Assembly: GCF_008195825.1 (NCBI RefSeq)
Contig: NZ_CP043329.1
Location: 1,550,001-1,614,000 of the forward strand
Reading direction: 5' to 3'
Length of the DNA stretch: 64,000 bases
Origin: Pedobacter aquae
Lineage (GTDB): Bacteria > Bacteroidota > Bacteroidia > Sphingobacteriales > Sphingobacteriaceae
In this document: positions 11,844 through 31,600 of the stretch, in pieces
How the letters are laid out: each line of letters starts with the position of its first letter
Numbering within the stretch: the stretch's first letter is position 1
Position numbers and translations under genes: made by a program
Notes under the pieces: model-generated
What the model saw: the letters and a program-made list of their open reading frames with translations, nothing else
Told to the model about the DNA's origin: nothing
Databases searched by the model: none

Positions 11844-13103
11844 TTATTTTTTTAATTGTTGATAACGCAAAAGCGCCTCTAAGAAATAATAATCGGCATA
11901 AATTAAAGGAACATCTATTTCTGATTTATGAGGGATACTACCTACAGAGTGTTTAAGAATAAAACCTAAGTTTGTACCTTCTTCTGCCAAATAAGGTTTG
12001 TTAGATAAAGATTGTAGCATTTCTTCTGCTGCTTTAAAATAAGTTTCTCCTTTTGATTTACTAAAAGTACTTAACTCAAGCAAAGCAGAGCTTACCAAAG
12101 CACCTGCAGAAGCGTCTCTTGGAATATAGTCTAGCTTTTTGTACTCTGGATATATCCATTCTGGTGTGTAGCCTTCTTGGTTAGCGTTAAAATCCCAATA
12201 CGGAATTTTATCTTTTGGTAAGTTTGGATGATTGATAAAGAAATCAGCAGCTTTTTCTGCAGCAGCTAAAAATTCTGGGTTTTGTGTTTCACGATACATT
12301 AATGTAAAGCCGTAAATTGCCCACCCCTGTCCTCTAGACCATGTAGAATTATCGGCATAACCTTGGTTGGTTTGTTGATGTAAAACTTTACCAGTTTTCT
12401 CATCATAATCTACCACGTGGTAAGTACTATAATCAGCTCTAAAATGATTTTGCATGGTTTTGGTTGCATGACTGATAGCTACATTTTTATATTTTGGATT
12501 ACCTGTTAATTTGGAAACATAGAATAACAATTCTAAATTCATCATATTATCGATAATCACAGGATACTGCCATAAAGTTTTCTTATCCCAAGACATCTTT
12601 GGATTCCACGATTTGATAAGCCCTACTTTCTCATCGTAACGGGTTAAAGCTGATTCTGCGGATTGTATTAATATATCCTGATATTCTTTAATTTTTTGGG
12701 GATCTTTTTCAAAACGTATAGCATTGCCGTAAGAACAATACATCACAAAGCCTACATCATGATGTTGCGTTAAAAATTTACCTGCCTCTAATGCTTCTGT
12801 CCACTGTTTTGCTGCCGCTTTCCATTCTGGCTTTTGGGTATACTCGTAGATATACCATAACCCTCCTGGGAAAAAGCCGCCTGTCCAATCCCAAACATCA
12901 GTTGTTTTCATAGTGCCATCAGGATAGATAGACCGTGGAAAAGCAGTTAAATCCTTAGAATTGTTTAACAAAACAGTGTATTGCTTTTGAGCTACTTCAA
13001 AGTCTTTTTCGATAACTTTTTGAGTGCTGCAAGATGCCATTGTAAATGTTAAACTTGCTAATAAAAAAATGCGCTTTGCGCCAGAGGCTGATATCTTTAT
13101 CAT
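11844..13103 (-). CDS. Unsaturated glucuronyl hydrolase, family GH88
   Basis: A 419-residue lipoprotein: the signal sequence ends in the lipobox T-M-A-S-C with C25 as lipidation site, so it should sit in the periplasm anchored to a membrane. The (alpha/alpha)6 barrel carries D116 in H-H-D-V-G-F and D185 in I-D-N-M-M-N-L, equivalent to D88 and D149 of Bacillus unsaturated glucuronyl hydrolase. The W-S-R-G-Q-G-W motif is also present. The family hydrates the C4-C5 double bond of lyase products and releases the unsaturated uronate, which is the step needed after the PL8 lyases of this locus. It follows the surface lipoprotein gene by 121 bases, a gap that contains a small hairpin. Confidence 0.93.
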   Translation of the reverse strand: MIKISASGAKRIFLLASLTFTMASCSTQKVIEKDFEVAQKQYTVLLNNSKDLTAFPRSIYPDGTMKTTDVWDWTGGFFPGGLWYIYEYTQKPEWKAAAKQWTEALEAGKFLTQHHDVGFVMYCSYGNAIRFEKDPQKIKEYQDILIQSAESALTRYDEKVGLIKSWNPKMSWDKKTLWQYPVIIDNMMNLELLFYVSKLTGNPKYKNVAISHATKTMQNHFRADYSTYHVVDYDEKTGKVLHQQTNQGYADNSTWSRGQGWAIYGFTLMYRETQNPEFLAAAEKAADFFINHPNLPKDKIPYWDFNANQEGYTPEWIYPEYKKLDYIPRDASAGALVSSALLELSTFSKSKGETYFKAAEEMLQSLSNKPYLAEEGTNLGFILKHSVGSIPHKSEIDVPLIYADYYFLEALLRYQQLKK

Positions 13104-13224: not shown

Positions 13225-14154
13225 TTAAGGGTTGATGGTAAGTTCTAGCTCTTTAACAGTCTTAGTTTCTCCGTAAATATTAACGTTAGAACCTACAAAT
13301 GTAACGGTGTAGGTACCTGCTCGGTTGTAAATAAATGTATATTCATCTAAACGGGTACTCATATTTTTAAGTGCCACGCCGCTATCAGGCTTAACTTTAG
13401 TAAGATTTAAAGCGTTAGATACTGCCCAAACTTGGTTGCTTAAGGTTGTAATACCACCACCTTGAAATTTTAATATTCTATCAGTTCCAAAAGTCCAAGC
13501 TACGGGTGATACTCCAAATTTTACTGATGTCCAGCCTGAAGTACCAATATCTGCAACGGTTAACAATTGTCCGTCTGTCGTAGTCATCTTAATATCAAAC
13601 TTGTTAACCCACCAACGTGGCTGTGTAAAACCTGTTACTGCGTTATATTTAAAAGCAAAGTATATAGGTTTACTTTTATCTAATGTTAAACCCAAACTAC
13701 TAAGACTTAATAAATTAACCACACCAGAGGATACATAAGTATTATCGTTTGATTGCAATCCGGATAAGGTAAATGCTGTTGTGATATCTGTCCAATCTGC
13801 AGATTCATTGATATTAGCTTCTGTATATTGTCCATTAAATTTTTGCGAAGCAAAAACCCTGAAAGATCGAGGTTGCTGAACATCAGAACCGTATCTTCTA
13901 TTGGTGGCAAATTCTACTGTAATATTATCGCTTTCTGCTACTGTTCTGTCTTTATAAATGTATCTGCTGCCTTCTAATCCAGAATAAAATATAAGTTGTT
14001 CTGGATTACCAGAAAGCAAGAACTTTACGGTATCGCCTACTTTATAGCTAGCTTTTTCTGCTTTAACAGAGAAATTAAGCTCGGCAACTTCTTTTTTATT
14101 ACATGCCGCAAATAGCATTAATAAAAGAGGTATGATATATATTTTTCTCATCAT
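13225..14154 (-). CDS. Surface glycan-binding lipoprotein candidate (DUF5017-like)
   Basis: A 309-residue protein with a lipoprotein signal (M-L-F-A-A-C, Cys at about 18). The segment after it, V-G-D-T-V-K-F-L-L-S-G followed by F-Y-S-G, matches the start of DUF5017 proteins, which lie right behind susD in many Bacteroidota polysaccharide loci. The rest is predicted beta-sandwich, and the end (Y-T-V-T-F-V-G-S-N) is Ig-like. No enzyme motif is present. By position (SusE/F-like) it should sit on the outer membrane and help capture the polysaccharide before SusCD import. The family call is from memory of the motif; the binding role is inferred. Confidence 0.7.
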   Translation of the reverse strand: MMRKIYIIPLLLMLFAACNKKEVAELNFSVKAEKASYKVGDTVKFLLSGNPEQLIFYSGLEGSRYIYKDRTVAESDNITVEFATNRRYGSDVQQPRSFRVFASQKFNGQYTEANINESADWTDITTAFTLSGLQSNDNTYVSSGVVNLLSLSSLGLTLDKSKPIYFAFKYNAVTGFTQPRWWVNKFDIKMTTTDGQLLTVADIGTSGWTSVKFGVSPVAWTFGTDRILKFQGGGITTLSNQVWAVSNALNLTKVKPDSGVALKNMSTRLDEYTFIYNRAGTYTVTFVGSNVNIYGETKTVKELELTINP

Positions 14155-14174: not shown

Positions 14175-15788
14175 TTACCATCCTTGATTTTGGGTCATTC
14201 CGTTATTTAGAGAAAGTTCTAAAACAGGAATTGGCAATAAGTTATGTCTTAGTGTTACGTTAGTACCAGCTAAAGCTGCAAACCTAAAAGTGGTAGGCGC
14301 TGTGTTTTGGATATCTCTAGCAAGTTGGTTCATCTCTGAAGTGAAAACATCCCATCTGATTAAATCAAATTTTCTTATTCCTTCAAAAGCTAACTCTAAA
14401 AACCTTTCTTCTCTAATTAGCCTACGTAACTCTTCTTTACTTGTTGCTAAAGAAGTTACATCAGTAGCACTAGCTCTGTCTCTTACTTCTTTTAGTGCTG
14501 CTGTAGCCACGCTAGTAGGTCCATTAACTTCGTTTTCTGCCTCAGCTAACATCAATAAAACATCAGCATAGCGCAGCAAAGGAAAATTCATTGGGGTGTA
14601 GTTCTTGTTTTTTGGTTTTACAACTTCATAAACCCTTCTGTATTTACCACAGTTTCTGTTATAAAGTTGTGCGCTTGTCCAAAAAGTAGAATCTCTTACC
14701 ACTTGTAAATTGTTTACGTTATTGTAAACGTATTGGTATGGAGCAATTGTCCAATCTCTTCTGGTATCTGTGGCGCCATAACGAGCATAAAGTTTTGGAG
14801 TTGCATTTATAAAGCCATAGCCGTAACCAAAAGCTTCATCATTACATTGTAAACCCATGGTATTACCTACACGGCCAGCTTCAAAATCGCCACCTCTATT
14901 ACCAAAAAACTCTACTTCCCAAATAGACTCGCCAATATCATATTTATCAGCAGCGTAATTGATGAATATTTGTTTAAAATCTGGATTTAAACGGTGTTCT
15001 TTAGGTCCATTATCTGGATAAACAATTTTTCTAGCCCATTTTAAAGCCTCTGCATATTTGCTTACATCATTTAAAGGAGCACCAGCCATTTTAAGGTAAA
15101 CTCTGGCTAAAACACCTCTTACTGCAGATTTTGAAACTCTGCCCCCAGCACCCAGCTGCGTGGCTGTTTTCACTAATCCTTCTGCTTCTTCCATCTCTTT
15201 CACAATAAAATCATAAACCTCTCTTTGCGGAGTTCTTTTGATGTTAATATCATTTACAGATGATGTTGGTACAGTTTTCAAAGGAATATCGCCCCAATTA
15301 CTTACCAATAAGAAATGATAATAAGCTCTTAAAAATTTAGCTTCTCCTTTTGCTGCGGCTTTATTAGCCTCTGGCATTTGAACTTGGTCTACCCTGCTTA
15401 AGAACACATTAGCTCTTTCTATACCTTCGTAAAGAAATCTCCATAAATTACTTACTGTGCTTGTAGAGGCATCAAAATTATAAACGGCTGTACCAATGGT
15501 AAAGGCGCTTCTAGAATAAAAACCATCATCGGCAACGTTTAAGTCGAGCAGTAAAGCACCACCATAAACTTCTTCTTTACCCATAATATCATAAATACCT
15601 GCAAGGCCAATATTTACATCGGTTTCATTGTTGTAATAGTTTTCTTTAACAATAAAGGTTGGGTCTTTCTCTAAGAATTTTTCACATCCTGTTTGCCCCA
15701 ATAGTATTACAGAAGCTAAACTTAATAAGGCTGTCTTTTTGATGACTGATGCCGAGCTTAGCGCTTTGAAAAAAGACTGAGCTTTCAT
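14175..15788 (-). CDS. susD: SusD/RagB family nutrient-binding outer membrane lipoprotein
   Basis: The signal sequence ends L-L-G-Q-T-G-C-E-K-F-L, a lipobox followed by the typical CEKFLE start of mature SusD proteins. The TPR-rich SusD fold is shown by R-A-Y-Y-H-F-L-L-V-S-N-W-G-D-I-P-L, L-R-Y-A-D-V-L-L-M-L-A-E-A-E-N-E and I-R-E-E-R-F-L-E-L-A-F-E-G-I-R. SusD forms the lid over SusC and binds the oligosaccharide. The frame stays open upstream into the end of susC (15848). The ATG at 15788 is chosen because it gives the shorter signal peptide and leaves 37 bases after the susC stop; the ATG at 15815 is the alternative and also avoids overlap. Confidence 0.95.
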   Translation of the reverse strand: MKAQSFFKALSSASVIKKTALLSLASVILLGQTGCEKFLEKDPTFIVKENYYNNETDVNIGLAGIYDIMGKEEVYGGALLLDLNVADDGFYSRSAFTIGTAVYNFDASTSTVSNLWRFLYEGIERANVFLSRVDQVQMPEANKAAAKGEAKFLRAYYHFLLVSNWGDIPLKTVPTSSVNDINIKRTPQREVYDFIVKEMEEAEGLVKTATQLGAGGRVSKSAVRGVLARVYLKMAGAPLNDVSKYAEALKWARKIVYPDNGPKEHRLNPDFKQIFINYAADKYDIGESIWEVEFFGNRGGDFEAGRVGNTMGLQCNDEAFGYGYGFINATPKLYARYGATDTRRDWTIAPYQYVYNNVNNLQVVRDSTFWTSAQLYNRNCGKYRRVYEVVKPKNKNYTPMNFPLLRYADVLLMLAEAENEVNGPTSVATAALKEVRDRASATDVTSLATSKEELRRLIREERFLELAFEGIRKFDLIRWDVFTSEMNQLARDIQNTAPTTFRFAALAGTNVTLRHNLLPIPVLELSLNNGMTQNQGW

Positions 15789-15825
15789 TTTAGTGTTTTT
15801 ATTTTGAGTTATCATAAAAATCAGA

Positions 15826-18800
15826 TTATAAGGAAACATTAAAACCAAATACTATTGTCTTAGGACGAGGGTATGATGAATAATCAAAACCTGGTGTTAA
15901 GGGCGAATAGTAAACTGCAACCTCTGGATCAAAACCTGTGTAGTTAGTGAAAGTAAGTAAGTTTTGTGCTGAAGCATAAACTTTTGCCGATTTCACTTTC
16001 AAACGCTTTAACATAGTTGGTGGAATATTATAACCTAAGGCAATGGTTTTTAACCTTATATAAGAACCATCCTCAACAATACGACTAGAGTATGCATTTG
16101 GCCCTTGTCCGTTTACCCTAAACATGGTTGTATTGGTGTTATCTGGTGTCCAACGGTTAGAAAAACTAGCATATTGGTTTAAACCAGCTCTGGTACCGCC
16201 CTCAAACAATAACCTATTTGCGTTTAAGATATCATTACCATAAGACCATTGGAAGAAAAGGTTTAAATCAAAATTCTTATATCTTAAATTGTTATTGATA
16301 CCACCTTGATGTATTGGATAACCTCTACCTATTACGGTTCTATCTAAATCATTCACAGTACCATCGGCATTTAAATCTCTGTATTTGATATCGCCAGGCT
16401 TAATAGAAGCTCTGGTATTACCATTGGTGGTTACATTATCTTTTAGCTGATATGCTCCGCTTGGTAATAAATCAAAATCTTCATAATTATAAACACCTTC
16501 CCAGATATAACCATACATTTGACCCAATGGCTGCCCTATTTTAGTAATGTATGCCGGAATCTCTCTAAAATTTTGATCCCAAGGCACTGTACGTATTAAG
16601 CTTTCTTGATTTTGTGTAAGCTCTAATACTTTATTTCTATTGAAAGCAATGTTGATAGAAGTACTCCACCCAAAATTTTTGTTATCTATATTTTGGCTTA
16701 ATACGCTTAGCTCTAAACCTTGATTAGATGTTTTACCTATGTTTTTAAATGCAGAGCTGTAACCGCTAGAATAAGGTAATAAAGCGTTTAGTAATAAATC
16801 TGAAGTTACTTTCTTATAATAATCTGCTGTAAAAGTGATACGTTGTTTTAAAAATCCTACATCAAAGCCAATATTGGTTTGGGCAGTTGATTCCCATTTT
16901 AGCTGAGGATTAGCTATAGAACTTAAGTAAATACCTTGTACCAAATTATTATTGAATGGATAATAACCATTGCTATTAGGTCCTGTATTATCGAAATTTA
17001 TCTCGGCATAAGTAGCATATTCACTTACGCGATTATTACCAGTTACACCATAACCTAGCCTAAATTTAGCATCAGAAAATATGGTTTGGTTTTTCATGAA
17101 ATCTTCGTTAATCACTCGCCATGCAAATGCTGCCGAAGGGAAATAACCCCACTGACTACCTTTTCTAAATTTAGAAGAACCATCAGCTCTAAAAGATGCT
17201 GTTAATAAATATTTGCTCTTGTAATTGTAATTGATTCTTGATAAATAAGACATTAAAGACCACTCGGTATTTAAAGCTGTTACCGGCTGTTGTATACCTT
17301 GACTTAAACCTGCTAAGCCTAAAATCTCGTTTGGTAATTGCGTAGCCCTTAAACCATATCTTTTAAAAGTGTTCTCTTGAAAAGTAAGACCACCAACAAC
17401 ATTAATGGTATGGTTCTTATTTATTTTTTTATTGTAGGTGATGATATTCTCATTTAACCAAGTATTGTTATCGGTATAAGTAACAGAACCGTTTACCTTA
17501 TCTGTACTACCAAAATAGCCATATCTGGTTAAAGAGTTATTGAAAACATCTTGTCTGGTGGAAGTATTATTAACCCCTCCAGATATTTTAATTTTTAAAT
17601 CTTTTGCAAGCGCATATTCTAAAAACCCGTTAGCTACTAAACGGTTGGTAAATGTTTCTCTAAGCTCATTTCTTGCAGATAAAATAGGATTTATACGATA
17701 ATCGTTTAACGGATTATCAATTTCAGGATCTAACAATAAATCGTCTAGCTCTACCCCTGTGGCCGTAACCGGACGATATCCCCAAACGCTATACATCAGA
17801 TAATTCATAGCCGAGAAATTTTGGTCTGGTGTGGCTGGATTAGATCCGAATGTTTTGGTACCAGAGTACAATACATTGGTACCTACTTTAAGTTTATCAT
17901 TAAAAGTCTGGTCTAAAGTAAACCTACCCTGTTTACGGTTAAAACCAGAGTTTATGATGATTCCTTTTTGATCAAATATATTTCCAGATAATGAATATTT
18001 GGTGTTTTTTGTACCTCCTCTTATAGATAGAGAATGGTCTTGCATAGGCGAGCTTTGGAATAATCTATCTTGCCAATCTGTGCCTTCTGCATTTCTATAA
18101 TCTTCTAATGTTTTACCATCTCTAAAATAATTAAGCTGTATGCCAACCGGATCACGCTCTGCTTGTAATTTCACAAACTCATAGGGTCCCATAACATCAA
18201 TAGTATTGATGATTTGTTGAACACCTACGTAACCCTGATAATTAATTACCGGCGGACCTTCTTTACCTTTTTTTGTGGTAATTAGGATTACACCATTTGC
18301 TCCTCTGGCGCCATAAATAGCTGTTGCAGAAGCATCTTTTAATACTTCTATAGACTCTATTTCTGCCGGATTTAATACTCCAGCATTTGCATCCTCAGTA
18401 GGAAAACCATCAATAACATATAATGGTGAGTTATCTTGTGTTAAAGAGTTTGCCCCTCTAACCACAATGTTAACACCAGAACCTGGTTTACCACTTTCTG
18501 AGCTTACTTGTACACCGGCTATTCTACCTGCCAATGCTTCTATAGCAGAACCAACTGGGGCTTTTTGTAACTCTTCCATGTTTACAGAGCCTACAGAACC
18601 TGTTAAATCTCTACGTTGCACTTCACCGTAACCAATAACAACGACTTCACTTAAAGCCTTATTATCAGATCTTAGTGCTACATCTATGGTGGTTTTATTA
18701 CCAATTACAACCTCTTGTGTGGTAAAACCTAGATAACGAAACTGTAAAACAGTGGTGGCGGCTGTAGGCACTTTGATGGTATACTTACCATTGATATCTG

Positions 18801-18963
18801 TAACAGCGCCTAATGTACTTCTTTTAACAGCTACACTTACACCAATTAAGGGGTCTCCTAGAGCAGCATCGGTAACCTTACCCGTTATTTGCCTTGTTTG
18901 CTGTGCTTGTAAACTTACTAGCGGAAGCATGAATAAGATTAATATTGAAATCTTCCTAATCAT
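15826..18963 (-). CDS. susC: SusC/RagA family TonB-dependent outer membrane transporter
   Basis: A 1045-residue protein with a signal peptide (MIRKISILILFMLPLVSLQA), then the carboxypeptidase-regulatory-like domain (I-T-G-K-V-T-D-A, about 26-105). The SusC TonB-box/plug region follows: E-V-V-V-I-G-Y-G, then the plug with Y-V-I-D-G-F-P and I-E-V-L-K-D-A-S-A-T-A-I-Y-G-A-R-G-A-N-G-V. The remainder is the 22-strand barrel, ending in an aromatic-rich C-terminus (V-F-G-F-N-V-S-L). It imports oligosaccharides across the outer membrane together with SusD, powered by TonB. It is the first gene of its operon; a conserved promoter module lies 65-120 bases upstream. Confidence 0.97.
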   Translation of the reverse strand: MIRKISILILFMLPLVSLQAQQTRQITGKVTDAALGDPLIGVSVAVKRSTLGAVTDINGKYTIKVPTAATTVLQFRYLGFTTQEVVIGNKTTIDVALRSDNKALSEVVVIGYGEVQRRDLTGSVGSVNMEELQKAPVGSAIEALAGRIAGVQVSSESGKPGSGVNIVVRGANSLTQDNSPLYVIDGFPTEDANAGVLNPAEIESIEVLKDASATAIYGARGANGVILITTKKGKEGPPVINYQGYVGVQQIINTIDVMGPYEFVKLQAERDPVGIQLNYFRDGKTLEDYRNAEGTDWQDRLFQSSPMQDHSLSIRGGTKNTKYSLSGNIFDQKGIIINSGFNRKQGRFTLDQTFNDKLKVGTNVLYSGTKTFGSNPATPDQNFSAMNYLMYSVWGYRPVTATGVELDDLLLDPEIDNPLNDYRINPILSARNELRETFTNRLVANGFLEYALAKDLKIKISGGVNNTSTRQDVFNNSLTRYGYFGSTDKVNGSVTYTDNNTWLNENIITYNKKINKNHTINVVGGLTFQENTFKRYGLRATQLPNEILGLAGLSQGIQQPVTALNTEWSLMSYLSRINYNYKSKYLLTASFRADGSSKFRKGSQWGYFPSAAFAWRVINEDFMKNQTIFSDAKFRLGYGVTGNNRVSEYATYAEINFDNTGPNSNGYYPFNNNLVQGIYLSSIANPQLKWESTAQTNIGFDVGFLKQRITFTADYYKKVTSDLLLNALLPYSSGYSSAFKNIGKTSNQGLELSVLSQNIDNKNFGWSTSINIAFNRNKVLELTQNQESLIRTVPWDQNFREIPAYITKIGQPLGQMYGYIWEGVYNYEDFDLLPSGAYQLKDNVTTNGNTRASIKPGDIKYRDLNADGTVNDLDRTVIGRGYPIHQGGINNNLRYKNFDLNLFFQWSYGNDILNANRLLFEGGTRAGLNQYASFSNRWTPDNTNTTMFRVNGQGPNAYSSRIVEDGSYIRLKTIALGYNIPPTMLKRLKVKSAKVYASAQNLLTFTNYTGFDPEVAVYYSPLTPGFDYSSYPRPKTIVFGFNVSL

Positions 18964-19093: not shown

Positions 19094-19097
19094 TTAA

Positions 19098-19136
19098 ATA
19101 TTAGAAATAGCTTATGATTAAAGCTATTTCTAATAT
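19098..19136 (-). terminator. Long hairpin after the 478-aa T9SS protein gene
   Basis: ATATTAGAAATAGCTT (19098-19113) and its exact complement (19121-19136) form a 16-bp perfect stem with a 7-base loop. It lies 48 bases beyond the stop at 19184 and before the susC promoter, so it most likely ends that transcript, although the following T-run is short. Confidence 0.65.
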
Positions 19137-19183
19137 AAAAATTTTCATCAATTGGTTCATCATGATGAATGATGATTATCATT

Positions 19184-20620
19184 TTATTTTTTAACAAATT
19201 TTGTTTGTGCGTTTAAGCCATTAGCTAAAACTCTGGCAACGTAAACTCCAGTTTGAATAGCAGGAATAGCTTTACTAACGATGTTATTACCTTCTTGTAA
19301 ACTTACTTGCTCTTCAAAAAGCTTTCTACCACTCATATCATAAACAGCAATTTTTGCTGATGTAGGAGACGAAGCGTAAATATGTGCATTTAAAACACTT
19401 TCTTCACTTACAGAAACTTTAAAACTTTGGTTATTTAAAGATGATTTAACAGCCACCAATTGATTAAAAATTGTTTCTGTACCATCAAAATCAACTTGTT
19501 TTAATTGGTAATAGTTGTTACCGTTGAGCGGGCTTTCATCATTAAAACTATAGTTTTGTACAACGTCTGAATTTCCTTTACCGCTAATACGTGAAATAAA
19601 TTTAAAATTCTTGTCTTCTCCGGCTCTTAAAAGCTCAAAATGAGAATTGTTTTGCTCTGATGCTGTTTTCCAATTTAAACGAATACCACTGGCTGTGTTT
19701 TCTCCTGTGAAAGAGGTTAGAGAAACTGGAAGAGTTGCTGATGGATAGGTTACAGAAATATTAGATAAATTAATTGTTTGTTGAGTGGTACCCCCTGAAT
19801 AAGCAAAAGAAATTGCATTAATAGTAGATTGTGTATAAGTAGATGAGGCTTTAGGAAAATCCTCTGCATATTTAACACCATCTACATAAACATGATAGGT
19901 ATTTGCAGGAATATTAACTGTATTTACACCGTAAGTATAAGATGAAGCAGCAGCAGTACTATTAGCAAAAACCTCAACAACCTGAGATAAACCGGCTTTA
20001 ATTAAGTAGGGAGTTGCTGTATTAACTTGAGCTGTTGCAACTCCTCCAACTAATCCATCTAGTGGTCTGTATTGTGTTACCATATTAGACCCACTTATAA
20101 CAACCCTAAACGCACCAAATATATCAGCTGCACTCGTAAAAGGGGAGCTAATGCTAGTTAAAGTTGATGGTGCAGCAGTATTTCCAAAAGCAATAGCAAA
20201 TGCGTTTGCTCCTGTGTAAGTAGTTAAGTCTATAGTGAATTTAAATTTTACAATTGGGTCCGCATTAGCGATACTAAAAGCAGCTACTTTCGCAATACTA
20301 GTCGTGGGATTCTTAATAGATAAAATATCTCCATTTAACTTAAACTCTGCACTTGGCTGATATGAAATTGCTCTTAATTTTAATGAACCATCGGTAATAT
20401 TTGGAAAAAATCTACCCTGAATAGATGTTAGAGAGCTAGGAAGTGGAGATTCATAATACTTACTAGGTGGAGATACTATACCAAGGGCAGTCGTATCATT
20501 TGCTGGCGATACCCCTCTGTTTAAATTAACATTAATTGTTCTGTTAAAAGGAGAAAATTGCCCTTTCACAAAACTTGCGCTTAATAATAAGCCTAAAGCT
20601 AAAAGTAGTTTTCTTTTCAT
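19184..20620 (-). CDS. Secreted T9SS-sorted protein of unknown function
   Basis: A 478-residue protein with a signal peptide (MKRKLLLALGLLLSASFVKG). Residues about 22-290 form an unrecognised, probably all-beta region rich in T, S, A and N, with no catalytic motif I can name. Residues about 295-390 (V-S-L-T-S-F-T-G-E then L-N-W-K-T-A-S-E-Q-N-N-S-H-F) are the fibronectin-like linker typical of T9SS cargo. The last about 80 residues are a type A T9SS sorting domain (V-Y-D-M-S-G-R-K-L, G-V-Y-V-A-R-V, ending V-K-K). It should therefore be exported to the cell surface. It is 19 bases behind a T9SS-exported PL8 lyase, so it may bind glycosaminoglycan or assist that lyase; this is inference. Confidence 0.8.
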   Translation of the reverse strand: MKRKLLLALGLLLSASFVKGQFSPFNRTINVNLNRGVSPANDTTALGIVSPPSKYYESPLPSSLTSIQGRFFPNITDGSLKLRAISYQPSAEFKLNGDILSIKNPTTSIAKVAAFSIANADPIVKFKFTIDLTTYTGANAFAIAFGNTAAPSTLTSISSPFTSAADIFGAFRVVISGSNMVTQYRPLDGLVGGVATAQVNTATPYLIKAGLSQVVEVFANSTAAASSYTYGVNTVNIPANTYHVYVDGVKYAEDFPKASSTYTQSTINAISFAYSGGTTQQTINLSNISVTYPSATLPVSLTSFTGENTASGIRLNWKTASEQNNSHFELLRAGEDKNFKFISRISGKGNSDVVQNYSFNDESPLNGNNYYQLKQVDFDGTETIFNQLVAVKSSLNNQSFKVSVSEESVLNAHIYASSPTSAKIAVYDMSGRKLFEEQVSLQEGNNIVSKAIPAIQTGVYVARVLANGLNAQTKFVKK

Positions 20621-20639
20621 AATTTTAATTTGTTTGGTT

Positions 20640-23600
20640 TTATATTTTTATAATTTTTTGTGTGATTTTCTTTTGATTTCCAGAAACTTGAAGCACATAC
20701 ACTCCCGCAGGTAAATACGATATATCTAACATCAATTCCTGAGTGGCATTTACCAAATGGCTTTTTTTGTACAATTCTTTTCCTAGCAAATCCAGAATTT
20801 GAACCTCTATTTGTTTGGAAAAATAAGCTGGATAACGAATATTGATTTCTCTCTGGCTAGGGTTTGGATAAATGGTAAGCGTTTCAATTTCTTGAGCAGA
20901 TAATTTAACAGTTACAACACCCTCATAACTGATTGTACCATCCAAATCTGTTAGCAGCAGTTTATAATATAATTGCGGATAGTTGCCTGGGTAGCTTTTA
21001 TCTACATAACTATAATTACTTATTGTAGCAGCATTATTAACAGCTTTTACCGTACTAATTTTCTGGAAATCAACACCATTTGTACTTCTATAAAGGGTAT
21101 AAACATTGGTGTTGCGTTCTGATAAGCTTTGCCATGTTAAGGCTATACCTTCCTGCTTTAAAGTTCCCTCAAAACCATTCATTTCTACAGGTAGGGTAAC
21201 ATCTTTAACCAATTTTAAAGTGGCAGAAAAGCCATCCTTTAAGGTAAAACCTGCATTTAATCCATTAGTTACTTGCGTAATGTTAGCATTATTGGCATTG
21301 GTTACTACTCGCCATTTTCCTGAAAGAGATACCGTAATTAAACTGGCAGATGAAACCCATTCACTATTTACATTGGCTACTGCATTTAAATCCGGATTAG
21401 CAATTTTAACAATTAAAGTATCTCCTGCTTCCCTAAGCGTTAATAAAGCCCTTCCTGATATCCCTTTTAAATAGCCTACATTAATATTTTGTTGAGCTAA
21501 AAAACAAGCATAAGATTTTATTTGGGCAGGGATATAACTAACTGCATGTACAGAATCTGTTTGTTTTAATACCTGATAAACTTCTCCATCTCTAATTTTT
21601 TGAGCTAAAGCACTCATATTTTGTGGCGTAATACTTGGTACAACAGTATAATGATATTTTGCCGCCGATGGTCTTGTACCATGCAATAACCAAGCTTTAC
21701 TAGCATTAGCTGTTGCTGTAGTGCTGGTATTTCCTGTGCTGTGTAATGGCGTAGACTGCTGACCTCTAAAGACTTGTATATTCCCATTTCCTACCGGGAT
21801 GTAATAACCTGTTGTTTGTCCGTTTACCAACCACACCTGATTGGTAGCCGTAGAAAGCTCTCCACTATAAGTAGCACTTGTTGGTATTAAAGAGTTTAAA
21901 TAAATAGATGGATTTGAACTGGCATTCACACCTTGAAAAAGTGTAGTTATTACTTGATTAGTGGTATTGGTAGCACTGATATTTGAGCCCAAACAAACCA
22001 TTAAAGAATCAAAAGTAAAGACCGATTTCTTGAACTTGAGGTTGTTAGCAGTATATTTAGAACCTCCATTTTCAATAAAATTCATCCCAAATACACCGTA
22101 ATTGCCATCTGCCAAAGCACCTGCAAAATCATCTGCTTGATATTCTGATGCTGTGCCACTTATAAGCGGGTTTAAATTATCATAAGCTAAACGCAAACTG
22201 GTTGTCCCGGGCATCATGTTCCAATCCCAACCAGCGCCATTAGCAATATAACCTGATGAGGCTAAACTACCATCATATAAAACTTCTAAAGAACCATAGC
22301 TTTGATAACGGCCGTATCTGTTAGCTTCGGTATAAATTTCTGCTCCAAACATAAGGTATGTAAAACCTCGCATGGCCGCTACCCAATTTCCTTTCCTCAT
22401 CACACCAGTTTGACCATAATTGAATTGGTAATAGCCATCTAAATTGATGTTAGTAGTACTATATCTATTGGTTTTAAAAATGTAATTGTAAAACTTCGCC
22501 ATCTCCGGTTCGAAACTGCTTCCTACCAAATCTCCGCCCACGGTAATCAACCTCTCAAAAGCGGTTACATTTACCGGAACTGTAGAAGGAAAAGGCCCTC
22601 TACCTGATGCTGCATGCGGATATATAGTTCCTTTTGAAGTTTCTAAGAAAAGACTTTTCATGAAGAAACACATATTTTGATAAGCCACCTGACTAATCTT
22701 AAAAGGTGTTCCTCTAAGTTCAAAAGCTCTGGCGATCCAAGTAGCATAGGCATAAGCATAGCTGATGTGTTGCGAATTATGATGAAAGAAAGTACCATCT
22801 GGTTTTATACCATCTAAAGCACCCTGACTTATCTCTACGGCATAAGCCAAGAAATCAGAAAAGCCTCTTAAATCTCTGGCAATTTCATCATTAGTTGCTC
22901 CTAACAAAGCTAATTCCATTAAGAAATTAGACTTTACATGTATAAAATCTGTATTTTGTCCGGGTGTTTGATTAGTAGCGTATATCTTGTTAAACTCATG
23001 AGACCATTTCAACATTTTAAGCACTTCTGCTTTAAGCGTAGCATCTTGTATGTAAGGATAAGCCTCTAGAAAACCTACCGGAAAATTACGTGATGCTGTA
23101 TAATCATTATAAGGCATTACATTTCTGGCACCTTCTGCCAAACCTTGCTCTAAAACCAAATAAGCTAATAAGCTTTGTAGCAGCGTATAAGCTGTGGCAT
23201 CATTGCTTACTGCATGCGCTCTGGCTAAAGCACCGCAATGGATAGAAATAGCTAACAAAGTAGCCTCATCAAATACATTTACCCCTATGCCTTTTAAAGA
23301 ACCATCGGTATTGGTGCTGATAGATAAACTGTTTACATAATCTTTTGCCGCCTGTAATACAGTAGCTGTTGGCGCTGTAAGTGTTCTATTATAAGTAGTT
23401 CTGATACTTTGAATGGCCGAAATTTCTGCTTGAGTAGCAGTAGGAATATTTTGTTGTGGTTGATTTAACCAATTTGCTAAAGCCGAAGTATAGGGTGAGG
23501 TTACTACAAAATGCTGACGGTCTAATACTAAATGCGGACCAGGAATTCTTTGCTCTGCATTGCCTACAAAAAGCATCTCATCTAAATAAAGTGTATTTAA

Positions 23601-24071
23601 AGTACTTGAGGAAGGACGATAAACCAACTCCATCCTATTTAAAGTAAAAGATGATGATTCATTACCGTTATTATAATCAAACCTATAACTTCTGTGGTAC
23701 TCTCGCCAGCCAGCATAGTTTAATAACATACGGCCTTGCCTTCTTAAAACGCCGCCTGTATCATAAAATCTAAAAAGTAAAGTATCGGTGCTTTTTCTAG
23801 AACTGTAAATTAAAAACTGAGCTGCACTTGCAAAATAATCTCCTATTTCTGCTGAAGGTATACTTAAGTTATTAGCTGTAAGCACAGAGCCACTTTGAGG
23901 TGTCCATTTCAGAGATTTCGCACCTCCTTTTACATGCTCAGCACTTGAAATAATTTGCCCATTACTTGCCGACCAACTGCTTGGTATACTGGTATTAAAA
24001 TCTACAAAGCGTTGTTGCGCAAAGGCAGTTATTTGTAAACCCAGAAAAAGAACTAGTAAAAGTATCTTCAT
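20640..24071 (-). CDS. T9SS-exported polysaccharide lyase family 8 (chondroitin ABC lyase-like)
   Basis: An 1143-residue protein with a signal peptide (MKILLLVLFLGLQITAFAQQ), an N-terminal jelly-roll as in chondroitin ABC lyase (about 21-175), the alpha-toroid PL8 catalytic domain (about 180-510) and PL8 beta-sandwich domains (about 530-950). A fibronectin-like linker (about 960-1055, V-E-M-N-G-F-E-G) and a T9SS sorting domain (about 1065-1143, ending I-T-Q-K-I-I-K-I) follow. H431 and Y438 have the His-x6-Tyr spacing of the ABC lyase catalytic pair, R491 lies in S-G-R-G, and E582 lies in T-E-A-N-R-Y-G-R-Y. The enzyme should cut chondroitin or a related glycosaminoglycan at the cell surface by beta-elimination. 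It heads its own operon with promoter module B. Exact substrate is not determined. Confidence 0.9.
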   Translation of the reverse strand: MKILLLVLFLGLQITAFAQQRFVDFNTSIPSSWSASNGQIISSAEHVKGGAKSLKWTPQSGSVLTANNLSIPSAEIGDYFASAAQFLIYSSRKSTDTLLFRFYDTGGVLRRQGRMLLNYAGWREYHRSYRFDYNNGNESSSFTLNRMELVYRPSSSTLNTLYLDEMLFVGNAEQRIPGPHLVLDRQHFVVTSPYTSALANWLNQPQQNIPTATQAEISAIQSIRTTYNRTLTAPTATVLQAAKDYVNSLSISTNTDGSLKGIGVNVFDEATLLAISIHCGALARAHAVSNDATAYTLLQSLLAYLVLEQGLAEGARNVMPYNDYTASRNFPVGFLEAYPYIQDATLKAEVLKMLKWSHEFNKIYATNQTPGQNTDFIHVKSNFLMELALLGATNDEIARDLRGFSDFLAYAVEISQGALDGIKPDGTFFHHNSQHISYAYAYATWIARAFELRGTPFKISQVAYQNMCFFMKSLFLETSKGTIYPHAASGRGPFPSTVPVNVTAFERLITVGGDLVGSSFEPEMAKFYNYIFKTNRYSTTNINLDGYYQFNYGQTGVMRKGNWVAAMRGFTYLMFGAEIYTEANRYGRYQSYGSLEVLYDGSLASSGYIANGAGWDWNMMPGTTSLRLAYDNLNPLISGTASEYQADDFAGALADGNYGVFGMNFIENGGSKYTANNLKFKKSVFTFDSLMVCLGSNISATNTTNQVITTLFQGVNASSNPSIYLNSLIPTSATYSGELSTATNQVWLVNGQTTGYYIPVGNGNIQVFRGQQSTPLHSTGNTSTTATANASKAWLLHGTRPSAAKYHYTVVPSITPQNMSALAQKIRDGEVYQVLKQTDSVHAVSYIPAQIKSYACFLAQQNINVGYLKGISGRALLTLREAGDTLIVKIANPDLNAVANVNSEWVSSASLITVSLSGKWRVVTNANNANITQVTNGLNAGFTLKDGFSATLKLVKDVTLPVEMNGFEGTLKQEGIALTWQSLSERNTNVYTLYRSTNGVDFQKISTVKAVNNAATISNYSYVDKSYPGNYPQLYYKLLLTDLDGTISYEGVVTVKLSAQEIETLTIYPNPSQREINIRYPAYFSKQIEVQILDLLGKELYKKSHLVNATQELMLDISYLPAGVYVLQVSGNQKKITQKIIKI

Positions 24072-25109: not shown

Positions 25110-27208
25110 TTAAAAAGACAGAAGAACTTCCTTACTAGAACCTGCATAAGGTTTCTGAGGCATGTCTACTGATAAGTCTATACTTTTACCAGATTTAATA
25201 TCGCTTATACTAAATTTGATTTGCTTTTCCTGCTGTAAGGGATCTGCAACGTATAAAGTCTTTTTACCTTTCACATTTTTAATCATGAAAACACAAGGTT
25301 TATCGGTTTTTATGCTGAGCTCATCTGTTTTAACTTCTGCTGCCTCGTGTAAAACGGCCTGTAATATTTTTAAACCTTTGTGATATACCACTTGCTGACT
25401 AGCCGTATTGCTAATGGTTTGTAACTGCTCTGGGTTAAAACCTTTCACATCTTTTACTGCTGGTAAAACCACGTAATGATAACTTGCCGCTTGTGTTTTG
25501 CTGCCATGGTTTATCCATAATTTAAATACATGACCGCTTACTTCGTTTTTTGGCTGCGAGCTATTGATTTTCTGCCATGTACCACTTTGTTTTTGCGAAC
25601 TAAGCTTCACATTTGCACCACTTGGAAAATAATAAGCAATACCATCATGCTGTATCCAACTATTATTATTTAAAGCGTATTCATTTAACTCATCTTTCTT
25701 TTGCGCTTTACCTACAGAAAGCTGAATATTACCATTTAACCAAGATTGGTTGAGTGTTGTGGTAACAGGCAAAGTACTTGTCGACTGTATATCTGCCCCC
25801 AAACAAACTATTTCTTGATCAAAGAAAAACCATGCTTTTTTAGCGGTAACACCATCGTACTTTAAATGATAAGCAGTTGCACCATAAACACCATCAGAAA
25901 CACCTCCTGCATAGGTATTTAAAGCAAACTCGCCCCATTGTTTCTCTAACAAAACATCTTCTGGGTTATCTACACTGGTTGTTCCAGGTATTTTATCCCA
26001 CTCCCATAAAGGCATAATATCGAAATACTCTGGCCCTCTTACTTGTATATTGGTTGCACCGTCAGAAAGGTAGCGGCCATATAAATTTTCCTTATTTCCG
26101 CTTTCTGATTTTTTGGTACGATTACTTGCAATACGTACATGAAAAGCGTATTGAGGGCGTACATGTTGGGTATAATCGCCTTTCCAATAATGCTGATGAA
26201 AAGGTTTTAGTTCATAATCTGGCGCTGCTAAGCTATCTACCCGCTGTCTGATATTTTCCCACTCTTCTTCTCTTGTAGCATCAATTAATTTTACTGTTTG
26301 GATACGGTATCTTTCTGAAGTTTTCTTGAGATTACCTTTTCTAGTTACCCCCCTACCTTCTACGTTGAAATCTATATATCTAGACCTAAAAGCATTAATA
26401 AAAGTTTGTCGGTAAAACTTAGAAAAAACCTCTAATTTCTCTGCACTTAGTGCATAAGGCGTTGCCCTTACCAAATTGGCAATTTTGGTTACTCCACCTA
26501 TAAAAACATTTCCATAGCCAGAAATATACAACTGCGGTCCGTGTTGTAGGTAAGAATAATCATGCTGTAAACCTTCTTCTGCTTCAGTTAAAACCACAGG
26601 TTCAAACAATTGGTCGAGAGATGATTTTAGTAAATCTTTATTTTCTGTAAGTAATGCTCTGTAAAAATAGTGCATTGCAATATCCGTTTTGTTAGCTCCG
26701 GTTTTATCCTCGGCTACCCCTCTTTTCATTCGTTCTAAAAGCTGTTTTTCTAGTTCTTCTGGCAAATAGCTATCACCAAATTTGAGTAAAATCAAAGATT
26801 CTCCTAGTCTTTGCGGCACACTAATTTCATTATGCCACCAATTATCACTTTTAGGGTCTTTGGCATACCAATATTCATAAGCTTTGATAATGCCATCTAA
26901 AAAAGCTTTGTTATTATAGTAAGAGCCGCCTTTATTTACATAAGCTTGTATGAGTAAATGTGTTTTTTCTAGATGACTTACAGGCGCCCAATTAGAAATA
27001 TCTTTAGCTTGGTAATTGATATCGCTCCAGCTACCATCGGGCTGTAAAGCGTCTAAAGCTGCTTTTGCCGGAACATCTGCTTTAGCAAAAGATTTACTGG
27101 CATCGTCAAAAATCCTTTTCATTATGGTGCCAAAAGGATAAGTTGCTTGCGCTTTTACCATAAAAGGTAAAAAGCCGATACAAAATAGGGTAATGAATAT
27201 TTTTTCAT
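25110..27208 (-). CDS. Chondroitin AC lyase-type PL8 enzyme, signal peptide out of frame
   Basis: The open frame from the ATG at 27161 encodes 683 residues of PL8 lyase. N157, H207, Y216, R270, R274, E353 and N356 sit at a constant offset of 18 from the active-site residues I recall for Pedobacter heparinus chondroitinase AC (N175, H225, Y234, R288, R292, E371, N374), and W109 matches W127. The enzyme cuts chondroitin 4- and 6-sulfate and possibly hyaluronan by beta-elimination. Nine bases after the preceding sulfatase stop there is an ATG (27206-27208) followed by six A. One more A would join it to the lyase as MKKIFITLFCIGFLPFMVKA, a perfect signal peptide. As written, that start ends after 17 codons and only an unsecreted form could be made. 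Confidence 0.88.
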
Positions 27209-27217: not shown

Positions 27218-28615
27218 TTAAGGATATTTTATTTCCATTTCTCTTCCAATAACCTCCATACGGTGTTTTTTTATTTGATTATCATCGCCATAATCACTTA
27301 TCCAATGTGGTTGTTGCATTTTTTGTTCCCAGTTTTGGAGTTTCTTTTCTAACTGTTTCACTTTTTGCGAATAGGTACTCGCTAGGTTATTTTGCTCGCT
27401 TACATCATCCTGTAAATTGAATAAGAGTAAAGGATTATTAGCTGTTCTAATCAATTTCCAATCCCCACTTCTAACGGCAGCAGCTACGCCTCTTCGCCAA
27501 AATAAATCTTGATGAGGTACAGCTTTTTTAGGGTCTAATAGATAAGGTAAAAGATTTACACCATCTAAAACTTGTCCTTTTAGGGCTTTTCCCTCACTAG
27601 CTGCAATAGCCGTTGGCGTAATATCCATTGCAGAAATCATAGGATTATAAACTTGATTGGCCGGTAATTTTGCAGGCCATTGCATGATATAGGCTACACG
27701 AATGCCACCCTCCCATTTAGAACCTTTTAAACCTCTTAACACACCATTATCGGCAGCGTTATTGGTTGCAGCGCCATTATCATTTAAGAAAACAATCAAA
27801 GTATTTTCGTAAAGCTTTTGCTCTTTTAAAGTAGCTACCAATTTACCTATGTTACGGTCTAAAGAAGTCATCATAGCTGCATAAGCTCTTCTTTCTGCGT
27901 TTTGGATATGAGCAAATTGTTGCATCAATTCTTGTTGCGCATTTATAGGGGTATGCACCGCATTATAAGCCAAATACATAAAAAATGGATTCTTTTGATT
28001 TTCTTTTACAAAAGATATGGCCTTATCGGTAAACATATCTGTAAGATAATACACCTCTCCTTCTGGTACAGCTTTTCTGTTGTGTAGCAATTGTAACTCT
28101 CGTTTAGGTTGCTTGTTATAAGCAAAAAAGTTACGATGCCCGCCAATAAAACCATAAAACTCATCAAAACCTCTATTTAAAGGGAAGTGCTTTTCTTCTT
28201 CGCCTAAATGCCATTTACCAATCGCAATGGTTTTATAACCATTAGCTTGCATTTGGTTTCCTATGGTTTTCACTGATGGATCTAAACCAACATCTGTTAA
28301 CTGAAAACCGTTAACGGGCTTGCTAGAAGTATTGTGCTCAAACCCGAAACGCTGCTGGTAACGCCCGCTAAGTAAACCCGCTCTTGATGGTGCACAAACT
28401 GCTGCTGTAACATAAGCATTGGTAAAGAGCACACCGTTTTTTGCTAGTGCATCAATGTTTGGAGTAGGTATTTCTTTACCTCCGTAACATCCAAAATCTG
28501 CATAACCGGCATCGTCACTTAAAATAACAATGACATTGGGTTTTGCCTTTGGCTGTGCTACCACTTGTAAAGTTATGACGCAAAATAAAGTTGTTATAAA
28601 TAGCTTGATGTTCAT
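27218..28615 (-). CDS. Family S1 sulfatase
   Basis: A 465-residue protein with a signal peptide (MNIKLFITTLFCVITLQVVA). C74 in C-A-P-S-R is the residue converted to formylglycine, and V-I-L-S-D-D-A-G holds the calcium-binding aspartates. G-K-W-H-L-G (about 155), H-T-P-I-N (about 222) and L-N-D-N-G-A (about 281) complete the active site. In this operon it should remove sulfate (4-O or 6-O on GalNAc, or from uronate) from chondroitin fragments in the periplasm; the position cannot be told from sequence. The maturation enzyme (anSME or FGE) is not in the window. The ATG immediately follows the TAA of the ABC-type lyase gene. Confidence 0.92.
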   Translation of the reverse strand: MNIKLFITTLFCVITLQVVAQPKAKPNVIVILSDDAGYADFGCYGGKEIPTPNIDALAKNGVLFTNAYVTAAVCAPSRAGLLSGRYQQRFGFEHNTSSKPVNGFQLTDVGLDPSVKTIGNQMQANGYKTIAIGKWHLGEEEKHFPLNRGFDEFYGFIGGHRNFFAYNKQPKRELQLLHNRKAVPEGEVYYLTDMFTDKAISFVKENQKNPFFMYLAYNAVHTPINAQQELMQQFAHIQNAERRAYAAMMTSLDRNIGKLVATLKEQKLYENTLIVFLNDNGAATNNAADNGVLRGLKGSKWEGGIRVAYIMQWPAKLPANQVYNPMISAMDITPTAIAASEGKALKGQVLDGVNLLPYLLDPKKAVPHQDLFWRRGVAAAVRSGDWKLIRTANNPLLLFNLQDDVSEQNNLASTYSQKVKQLEKKLQNWEQKMQQPHWISDYGDDNQIKKHRMEVIGREMEIKYP

Positions 28616-31600
28616 TTAATTTCCTTTTATTAATTTCAATGGAGTAGCCAAACCATAAGCACAATTTACTTTAATTAAAGTATTACCTTGGGTTGTTTTT
28701 GCAACTTCATATTTTTTACTATCATCGGCTTTAAGCCAATTACCTTTTAATTCTAACTGTATTACTGATGGTTGCGCATCGGTTTTAAACCAATAACGAG
28801 AGTAAATACTTACCTCTTTTCTAGTACCATCGCTGTTTAGAGGCGTTTCATCTGCACCTTGGTAAAAGCCCAAATCTGGGTCGGTAATAGCCAAATTTAA
28901 TTTTGCTGCTTCTTGCTGATATAAAATTAAACAAGCTTTACTGTTGTTGATGATAAGCGGGTCTGTTGATTGACTATTTTCTTTAAAAAGAGCCAAACCT
29001 GTAAGCTGTTGCGCTATATATTTTACGCTATGTGCCTCAGCGGTTTTTTGCAAAACCTGATAAACAGGCGTTTTACCAGACATTTGCGTTTTAAAAGTCT
29101 GCATTTTTTTAGCATCAGCACCTATCAACATAGCATATTCGTAAGCTTCACTTTTGGGCGCAAAACCATGCTGTAAAACTAAACTTGCAAAGTTACCCTG
29201 TGTGTTTTGTGTATCTTTTTGATCTCTAGATTGCTGCTGATTTTTGCTTAAAGCCATTTTACTATTGGCAGTTAAATAATAGCCTATCCCTCGGTTATCC
29301 AATACGAAAGCTGGCTTTGTTAAAGCTTTAGATACTTGTGTAGGAAAATCAATTGGCTGATGATCAAGCAATACAGCTTCGCTAGGGTTGTTTAAATAGT
29401 TTTGAAAAATGGTTGTTTCTGTCGGATATTCCTTGATGTTATTTTCAATATCAGAACCTAAACACACTACCAAGCTATCAAACATAAACCAAGATTTTAT
29501 CGCCTTAAAGCTTCCCAAATTGTATTTATCATGCCCTCTAAGCTTCATAGCAAAAAGCCCTTGTTGGTTTAAAGAAATACCTCCGGCAAAAACTTCATCT
29601 GTTAAAAGCATTTCTTCTACACCGCTAAAATCATCCACATTAAGAATTTGAGCCCTTAATTTATCAAGCGGAACATGTAAGGTAGTTGCTCCGGGTATGC
29701 GATTCCAATCCCAACCTTTATCGGTAAAATTACTTCCTGTATAGCCCGGCGTTTCTGGAAATAAAACTTCTAAATGTCCGTAATTTAGATACCTGCCAAA
29801 AACGTTGGCTTTAGGGTAAGCTTCATGACTTACCATATATCTATTATGACCTTTTACCGTTAACAACCAGTTATTTCTTCTGTGGATAGCCAGTAAGCCA
29901 TAGTTTAAATTCCAATGTCCGTTTGGGTATTTTGCAACTTGTACATCTGCTTGCTTAAACTTTTTCTCCCAAGCCAAGCTTTTCTTTTTAGACACCAACA
30001 AATAAACAGCAGCCATTTCTTTATCTATGGCTTCTTTACCATCCGGAGTACCGGCAAGCGCTAGGTAAGCATAAGGTTTGTCTGGAACGCTCCATGTTCC
30101 TGTTGGATGCCTTCCCGAAATACTGATGGGCCACTTATAAGGATTGGTATAGTAATGCATCATCAATAAATTTTCTTTAAATTTTTGATGCGCTTCCTGC
30201 TCTACTTGATAGCTTGTTTTACTCAACACATAAACAATTGGGGCTAAACCATTATAGCCTCCAACACCATAAGCCGGATACAAAGTTGCATGATGAAAAA
30301 CTGCTCCATCGGGTTTAAAAGCACCTGTTATGGCTACATTGGGTTTCATGTTAAAAGACAACCAACGTGAGTAATATTGTAGAAAGCGCATTTTTTCTGG
30401 AGTATCATCTAAAATTAAAATACTGCTCAACATTCCTTGTAAAAGCGTATTTAAAACATCAATATTAGATTCTGGCATTTTTTCTGGCACTTCCACAGCT
30501 CGGCCCAAGCCGCTAAACCAAAACATACTTTTAAAAGTTTGTTCTAACTTTCCGGATGCCTTAATAGCATCTTTCATGAGTAGACAAGCGGTGTAATAAT
30601 TCTCCAAATTATAGCCTAAATGATGCAAAGCGCCCATACCACTACCAAAAGACCAACCTTGATTTTCTGCATGGTCTAGCAGATTTATAAACATTCTTGC
30701 TAGCTTATCTTTATGGGTTTGGATGGTACTGAAATAATGAGCTTCTGCCATAGCTAGCATCAGATTACTATATTTACTGATGTTTGTTGTAGCGTTAATT
30801 TTCTTTGCCGAGTCTAAATCATTTTCATCAAACAGTTCAATATCATTAGTAGAAAAAATGGTTCTTCCTGTAATAAATTGGCTTTTTTTCTTGATTTCCC
30901 AGAAGGCATAGTCTTTTTCTAGTTTCCTGATGATGGTATCTGTAATAACTTTTTTTGAAGGAAGAACTACCTCTAAGAAACGTTTATAAATTTGACCGAC
31001 TTCTTTTTTATCTTGCGGAGTTATAGCCGCTTTTAGAGGCAAATTATCTGGCGTAGTGCTAAATTTATAAAGTGAATTCCAATGAGCATTTGCGGCATGG
31101 TCTGCATCTAAATTCACAAAAGGCACTTGAAAATCTCGCATGGGCGACCGTGGATTGATGTTTACCTGATACATCACTTGGTCTAGGTATAAAGTTCCTT
31201 TTTTTACTGTTGAGGGCGCTTTAATTTCTAAGCGATTCATATTGGGCTGCGGTGTACTTTGCATATCCCGGTGGTACATCACCCAAGCTGTTCGCCAACC
31301 TTTAAAATTGAGGTTAAAATCAAATTTACAGGCTTCTTTATCTGCATTGTAAAAGGTAAAACTTAGTTTATCTGCAACAGGGTTTTCATTATAAATCCAA
31401 AAAACAAAAGTGCTACGTTTATCTGATGCTACCTTTTTAAATTCATCTGAAACGATATTTAAAACACTTTCATTCCCTTTTGCCCAAGTCCATGCAATGG
31501 CACTTTCGCCTATTTTCTGATGTTGCGTACTGATAGCTAATTTACCACCTTTAGCTTGCCATTCTTGAGGCACCTCTTCCTCACAAATATCTTTCTGTAA

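Follow-up and report, generated by a model that had tools for sequence, protein, structure and literature searches.

The type IX secretion system (T9SS) has already been linked to the degradation of chondroitin. CslA of Tenacibaculum maritimum is a chondroitin AC lyase of polysaccharide lyase family 8 (PL8_3) with predicted T9SS export, and a review reports that a gldN mutant of Flavobacterium columnare no longer degrades chondroitin; the T. maritimum paper found no sulfatase in that species and considers chondroitin not to be assimilated (PMC5561996, PMC8714846). An arrangement for another polymer is the chitin locus of Flavobacterium johnsoniae, where the T9SS exports a soluble multimodular chitinase, ChiA (PMC5127042). 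In the contig NZ_CP043329.1 of Pedobacter aquae, a stretch of 64,000 nucleotides (positions 1,550,001 to 1,614,000; hereafter the window, to which coordinates refer) contains two adjacent genes that encode a PL8 lyase and a partner protein of 478 residues, both ending in a T9SS sorting domain. The lyase shares with the T. maritimum and F. columnare enzymes that it is a PL8 chondroitin lyase tied to T9SS export. However, CslA is of the AC type, whereas the window lyase has the ABC-type layout and is encoded in a locus with SusC and SusD (SusCD), GH88, sulfatases and a lectin-like partner. Because T9SS chondroitinases are known from T. maritimum and F. columnare, the lyase half of the finding is not new. 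The chitin locus of F. johnsoniae also combines a T9SS-exported endo-enzyme with surface glycan-binding proteins and porins, but it serves another polymer and the available part of its description contains no stand-alone T9SS lectin (PMC5127042). We regard as new the lectin-like family to which the N-terminal domain of the partner belongs, its stand-alone T9SS form in loci of this kind and its exchange as a cassette. The reading towards which we lean, with some reserve, is that the locus serves chondroitin, dermatan or hyaluronan, that the T9SS lyase cuts the polymer outside the cell and that the partner, as a stand-alone lectin at the surface, feeds SusCD. The two proteins are built as follows.

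20640..24071, minus strand: PL8 lyase with chondroitinase ABC layout and T9SS tail, 1143 residues (open reading frame (ORF), family matches and alignment to 1hn0)
23547..24014, minus strand: Lyase_N domain of the lyase, residues 20-175 (PF09092, E 7e-13)
22467..23153, minus strand: Lyase_catalyt domain, residues 307-535, with H431, Y438 and R491 (PF09093, E 3e-22; 1hn0 alignment)
21630..22424, minus strand: super-sandwich domain (Lyase_8), residues 550-814, with E578 (PF02278, E 6e-37; 1hn0 alignment)
20892..21200, minus strand: lyase linker, about residues 958-1060, of a kind common before type A tails (28% identity to the partner linker and tail; boundaries approximate)
20649..20873, minus strand: type A T9SS sorting domain of the lyase, residues 1067-1141 (Por_Secre_tail and TIGR04183)
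19184..20620, minus strand: partner protein, 478 residues (ORF; model with three folded parts)
20561..20620, minus strand: N-terminal signal peptide of the partner, residues 1-20 (by eye)
19745..20542, minus strand: partner N-domain, residues 27-292, predicted concanavalin A-like jelly roll with no Pfam or NCBIfam model (structure model, structure and family searches)
19442..19723, minus strand: partner linker resembling an immunoglobulin (Ig) or fibronectin type III domain, residues 300-393 (strands in the model; a general T9SS linker, the label being a judgement)
19190..19423, minus strand: type A T9SS sorting domain of the partner, residues 400-477 (TIGR04183 34.9 bits over residues 413-478; model)

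In the lyase, the Pfam domains Lyase_N, Lyase_catalyt and Lyase_8 follow one another in the order characteristic of chondroitinase ABC-type PL8 enzymes, with the Lyase_catalyt match covering only profile positions 129-356 of 359. Its top sequence match in the PDB was chondroitin ABC lyase I of Proteus vulgaris (1hn0, E 5e-63), which aligned with lyase residues 281-947 and left the N-terminal 280 residues outside the match. Residues H431, Y438, R491 and E578 of the lyase align with H501, Y508, R560 and E653 of 1hn0, which we take to be the four catalytic positions (His, Tyr, Arg, Glu) of that enzyme. To our knowledge, the 1hn0 enzyme has no T9SS tail; in the window lyase the tail was recognised by both Por_Secre_tail (E 5e-14) and TIGR04183 (54.5 bits against a cut-off of 23). 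By layout and catalytic positions, the T9SS-tailed protein is classed as a chondroitinase ABC-type PL8 lyase, with predicted activity on chondroitin and dermatan sulfate.

The partner ORF lies 19 bases from that of the lyase on the same, minus strand, and TIGR04183 (34.9 bits against the same cut-off of 23) was its sole match over cut-off in Pfam and NCBIfam; the Pfam tail model reached 20.1 bits, below its cut-off of 27. The existence and spacing of the two genes, their type A tails and the lack of a known enzyme motif in the partner agree with the original prediction, which had been made from the nucleotide sequence alone. The genome also encodes the T9SS sortase PorU (1338 bits against a cut-off of 420), so that both proteins, which carry tails over the TIGR04183 cut-off and N-terminal signal peptides assigned by eye, are predicted T9SS type A cargo. 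A full-length model of the partner from eight sequences (predicted local distance difference test, pLDDT, 71.5; predicted template modelling score, pTM, 0.54) contains three folded parts, the N-domain, an Ig-like spacer and the tail, with most of the first 80 residues at low confidence. The same prediction had noted that the two proteins carry the same linker. The resemblance is not specific: the genome contains 26 type A tails over the TIGR04183 cut-off, and the partner linker and tail gave 14 matches in it, of which 12 are neither the partner nor the lyase. Identities to these 12 are 27-44%, and the lyase (28%) comes 11th of the 14. The shared C-terminus was consequently rejected as a sign of a dedicated pair: being general in the genome, it marks both proteins as T9SS cargo and provides no evidence of pairing. 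ChiA of F. johnsoniae is exported in soluble form (PMC5127042), and the two window proteins may end up either anchored or released.

The N-terminal part of the partner had been proposed as a possible new fold. Structure prediction gave a different answer. An AlphaFold2 model of the N-domain built from 12 sequences (pLDDT 78, pTM 0.84) was compared with solved structures, and rescoring of the Foldseek matches yielded Z-scores of 11.8 to 16.4 over 160-214 residues among the 50 matches listed. The highest value belonged to BT_1020 (16.4, with an aligned chain range of 56-620 that may join domains), followed by part of the GH181 sialidases (15.2), Emp46p and ERGIC-53 (about 13) and, at about 12, legume lectins and the alginate lyase Aly36B. 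Carbohydrate-recognition domains and parts of glycosidases are thus both found among the top matches. Since the Foldseek TM-scores are low (0.29-0.49 by model length, for the matches listed), the assignment is based on Z-scores together with coverage and on the Foldseek E-values. In the model, the N-domain is a concanavalin A-like two-sheet jelly roll, and the idea of a new fold was rejected. Its predicted fold is like that of the concanavalin A-like domains of the Akkermansia GH181 sialidase, BT_1020 and Emp46p/ERGIC-53 (Z 13 to 16), but sequence identity to them is 5-17% and no common Pfam family was found. In family searches over curated cut-offs, no Pfam or NCBIfam family matched the window N-domain and none was common to two or more of 23 members; weak matches, each in one of the 23, were treated as chance. 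Sequence searches of the PDB returned no match for the whole partner or for a profile of the 23 N-domain sequences, and the N-domain alone obtained one match at chance level (E 2.7). In the literature searched, which lay mostly outside the subscription journals, no paper on the N-domain was recognised.

Counting the window genome in each case, a search with the single sequence found the N-domain in 16 of the 301 genomes of the family, a profile gave at least 94 matches in 26 of the 400 genomes of the order (up to six candidates being scored per genome), and 7 of the 395 genomes sampled across the phylum contained it. In relatives, the domain is fused into four PL8 lyases (L042, L048, L094, L095), one chondroitinase B-type lyase (L050), four DUF4955 beta-helix proteins (L038, L041, L049, L098), two GH18 proteins (L101, L105) and one GH5 protein (L103); Hepar_II_III_C (L096), Alginate_lyase (L097) and DUF4957 (L052) matches fell below the curated cut-off and were not counted as fusions. 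Occurring as a separate module added to carbohydrate-active enzymes is what characterises a carbohydrate-binding module, and, as judged from these fusions, the N-domain behaves like a mobile module of this class. Carbohydrate binding is what we infer for it. Multimodular T9SS enzymes with one module of undefined function have been described for alginate and cellulose (PMC13235733). Gene context was examined in 40 N-domain loci that we picked from the single-sequence and profile matches. SusC/SusD-like genes were present in 30 of the 40, where SusD density predicts about 5.6 (Poisson), a comparison in which the loci were chosen by us and are not independent and the expectation is somewhat low, SusD counts being at least 62 in three cases.

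A second kind of locus contains SusC, SusD, two more genes, an N-domain protein of about 305 residues, another of about 480 residues and further genes downstream (L102, L106, L107, L108, L110, L113). The one locus of this layout scanned with Pfam, L108, encodes fasciclin/CBM96, beta-helix, two GH20, MFS transporter, amidohydrolase and CBM9 proteins, and an amino-sugar glycan is the likely substrate of such loci. The GH18, GH5 and GH20 contexts led to the rejection of glycosaminoglycan specificity for the N-domain family as a whole. The glycosaminoglycan binding that had been proposed for the partner was weakened as a family trait by these contexts and by a fusion to an endonuclease/phosphatase-type protein. 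Rather than glycosaminoglycans alone, amino-sugar-containing glycans would be a common thread of many N-domain contexts.

The surroundings of the pair are those of a polysaccharide utilisation locus, whose substrate would be chondroitin, dermatan or hyaluronan. The SusC-like, SusD, DUF5017 and GH88 genes are downstream of the pair, the others upstream.

11844..13103, minus strand: GH88 unsaturated glucuronyl hydrolase (PF07470)
13225..14154, minus strand: DUF5017 protein, probable lipoprotein in the SusE position (PF16409; Cys near the start by eye)
14175..15848, minus strand: SusD (PF07980, PF14322)
15826..18963, minus strand: SusC-like importer, the next gene downstream of the partner and adjoining the SusD gene (by eye from the sequence)
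25110..27161, minus strand: chondroitinase AC-type PL8 lyase with no T9SS tail match (PF02278, PF08124, PF02884; NF043001 987 bits, just below the cut-off of 1000)
27218..28615, minus strand: sulfatase (PF00884)
28616..31636, minus strand: second chondroitinase ABC-type PL8 lyase with no T9SS tail match (Pfam)
31678-33197: split sulfatase, two overlapping ORFs
33402..37511, minus strand: hybrid two-component regulator of the locus (Pfam)

In the reading that we favour, the T9SS-tailed lyase would be the first, endo-acting enzyme and would cut long chains outside the cell. The partner, its concanavalin A-like domain mounted on the Ig-like spacer and the T9SS tail, would hold the polymer or large fragments near the surface, from where SusD, the DUF5017 protein and SusC would take them up. 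The chondroitinase AC-type lyase, the second ABC-type lyase, the sulfatases and GH88 would then finish the degradation in the periplasm. Glycan capture at the surface of Bacteroidota is usually credited to lipoproteins such as SusE, SusF and SGBP-B, which are encoded beside SusCD. The partner has a presumed role and a gene position like theirs, but it has a T9SS tail, and no Cys was seen by eye in its first 45 residues, so that it lacks the lipobox of a SusE/F-type lipoprotein; moreover, the position of SusE/SusF/SGBP-B in the window locus is already filled by the DUF5017 protein.

The order lyase, partner, SusC, SusD, DUF5017 and GH88 is complete in 4 of 20 loci (L036, L037, L040, L042), and L045 has the same lyase-to-GH88 order with one extra N-domain gene inserted. 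Close lyases (at least 42% identity, which leaves out two lyases of G149 at 32-33%) occur at 16 places in the 301 genomes, and in 12 of these the N-domain is encoded by the adjacent gene or forms part of the lyase itself. Among the lyase relatives there is also a 2135-residue protein (L139, 6176-12583) that contains a region 45% identical to the lyase in its middle, long flanking parts and, by eye, a T9SS-like end, and no N-domain. The genomes G105, G289 and G342 have partner relatives (46, 36 and 33% identity) whose genes lie between those of chondroitinase AC and SusC, and the best lyase matches there are partial and 25-28% identical. As these relatives stand beside SusCD with no close T9SS lyase, the partner is better read as a surface component of the locus, and it is probably its glycan-binding part rather than a lyase subunit. 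The capture-and-cut unit of the original prediction is partly supported: both proteins are predicted T9SS cargo, their gene order with SusCD recurs in relatives, and fusion of the N-domain into PL8 lyases and other enzymes is what such a pairing predicts. The three genomes weaken the reading of the partner as dedicated to the lyase.

These three genomes are among several observations that weigh against our reading. The N-domain is absent from three close-lyase loci (G246, G191 and G054:C31, both lyase copies of G054 being broken by a stop), and the locus G018:C6 lies at a contig end. In 10 of the 40 loci there is no SusC/SusD-like gene within reach. The six N-domain genomes among the 394 others in the phylum sample belong to other families, and the six stretches scanned there (6-18 kb) gave no SusC/SusD match. 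Fusions extend to an endonuclease/phosphatase-type protein (L104) and to an fn3 protein with no enzyme match (L099). Of the fused proteins scanned, only the four PL8 fusions have a Pfam tail over cut-off; in the others it is below cut-off or absent, and the same Pfam model misses the partner too. Further, the concanavalin A-like fold is also used by enzymes and for protein contacts. Part of this evidence would fit a partner that is a general surface protein, an adhesin or a protective coat that uses the T9SS and stands in the locus by an accident of gene order. The 26 type A tails, the general kind of linker and tail, the N-domain proteins from other families, whose surrounding stretches gave no SusC/SusD match, and the endonuclease/phosphatase-type fusion all point that way, but the repeated fusion of the N-domain to lyases and glycosidases and its repeated adjacency to a lyase and SusCD make this explanation unlikely.

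A comparison with Pedobacter puniceum (L040) located a marked change in the N-domain. In steps of 90 bases, DNA identity between the two species is 72-96% from the end of the lyase gene until the partner gene begins, falls to 41-66% from +120 to +840 within it and returns to 97% at +930. At the protein level, the signal peptide (95%), linker (93%) and tail (83%) of the partner contrast with an N-domain of 52% identity, and the neighbouring proteins are 91% (lyase), 93% (SusC), 94% (SusD), 85% (DUF5017) and 90% (GH88) identical. The trees conflict in the same sense. The lyase tree joins the window and P. puniceum (99/97), whereas the N-domain tree places P. puniceum outside a group of the window and Pedobacter glucosidilyticus (fork 93/95), and grouping the window with P. 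puniceum was rejected for the N-domain (approximately unbiased test, p-AU 0.0002), the pair having been chosen for the test after the identities had been seen. In the tree of the C-terminal part of the partner, both species fall in a group of four that includes P. glucosidilyticus (99/99), with an inner fork below 80, drawn open, so that a pair of the window and P. puniceum is neither supported nor rejected. The stretch of 52% identity between near-identical parts and the conflicting trees indicate that the N-domain has been replaced as a cassette within an otherwise orthologous gene. The nearest relative of the P. puniceum N-domain is a domain of G108, at 61%.

The comparison with P. glucosidilyticus suggested a second, likely breakpoint at the 3′ end of the partner gene. 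DNA identity is 46-87% up to about +1380 of the gene and 93-100% thereafter, and the highly similar stretch continues to the end of the comparison, about 1500 bases past the partner gene (window positions about 17680-19240, into SusC). These identities indicate that the SusC side of the locus was exchanged recently. Farther downstream, GH88 is 99% identical and SusD 87% at the protein level, which suggests that the exchange may be patchy. A general speed-up of partner evolution was dropped as an explanation, the downstream comparison with P. glucosidilyticus being disturbed by this recent exchange.

The cassette replacement admits another interpretation, in which the partner binds glycans but serves surface diversification, that is, ligand specificity or avoidance of phages and predators, and the N-domain is swapped for this reason as the remainder of the locus is retained. 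The replacement between the window and P. puniceum is the observation from which it starts, but it is a single clear exchange in one species pair. Relative to P. glucosidilyticus, the N-domain (72%) is near the lyase (81%) and the tail is lower (67%), so that a general speed-up is not shown. Surface pressure and a change of ligand would leave the same trace in sequence, and we regard this interpretation as rather unlikely. A precedent in spirit is provided by Bacteroides thetaiotaomicron strains, where differences in specificity are reported to be linked to SusC/SusD variation (PMC5967196).

Residue conservation was analysed in 76 copies of the N-domain, found among 544 ORFs of 46 stretches. 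G146 and N220 are present in 76 of 76, Y228 in 73, F168 in 72, K111 in 71, R185 in 69, N221 in 67 (Ser in the window), E216 in 62 and H243 in 48; these conserved residues may line one site. The position of E216 is occupied by Glu in 62 copies and by Asp in 8, and this is the lone acidic residue of the window N-domain over 60% conservation. That the N-domain is itself an enzyme, such as a jelly-roll lyase or glycosidase acting with the PL8 lyase, is very improbable: its fold matches do include alginate lyases (Aly36B, a PL7 and a PL14) and GH16-type glucanases, and K111, R185, E216, N220, Y228 and, in 48 of 76, H243 are conserved polar residues, but GH16-type catalysis needs a pair of acidic residues and E216 stands alone, H243 is replaced by a different residue in 28 of 76 copies, and the catalytic domains to which it is joined in fusions are complete and come from several families.

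Returning to the partner as a surface lectin, a wider and more tentative proposal is that the N-domain founds a new carbohydrate-binding-module family for amino-sugar-containing glycans, which occurs both as a module of lyases and glycosidases and, standing alone, as a T9SS surface lectin feeding SusCD, and whose exchange as a cassette among Pedobacter-type species would retune capture by the locus. This is possible rather than probable. If the T9SS lectin does act in a SusCD locus, it would represent another way of surface glycan capture beside that by lipoproteins. Defining the N-domain family would account for a group of proteins that now lack a function, and its members are a ready sample for glycan-array work. 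Through the cassette exchange the question of the ligand becomes testable, as two natural N-domain versions can be compared on one background.

Some genes of the cluster have altered starts or frames. The sulfatase at 31678-33197, divided into two overlapping ORFs in the window, is a single ORF in the relatives L143 (523 residues) and L145 (507 residues) and looks frameshifted, through a mutation or an assembly error. When the DNA was compared, the 5′ end of the chondroitinase AC gene (27161-27210) was out of frame with the start used in relatives, and the second ABC-type lyase begins, at about 31636, 9 residues later than its relatives. The cluster would thus contain as many as three disrupted starts or reading frames, and a sequencing error may be involved. 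Between the chondroitinase AC gene and the gene of the T9SS lyase, positions 24260-24972 encode a PIN-domain protein and a DUF6364 protein, which are likely to form a toxin-antitoxin pair. No match to the PIN gene was found at this place in L036 or L037, and in P. puniceum it is present at the matching place, with 88% identity.

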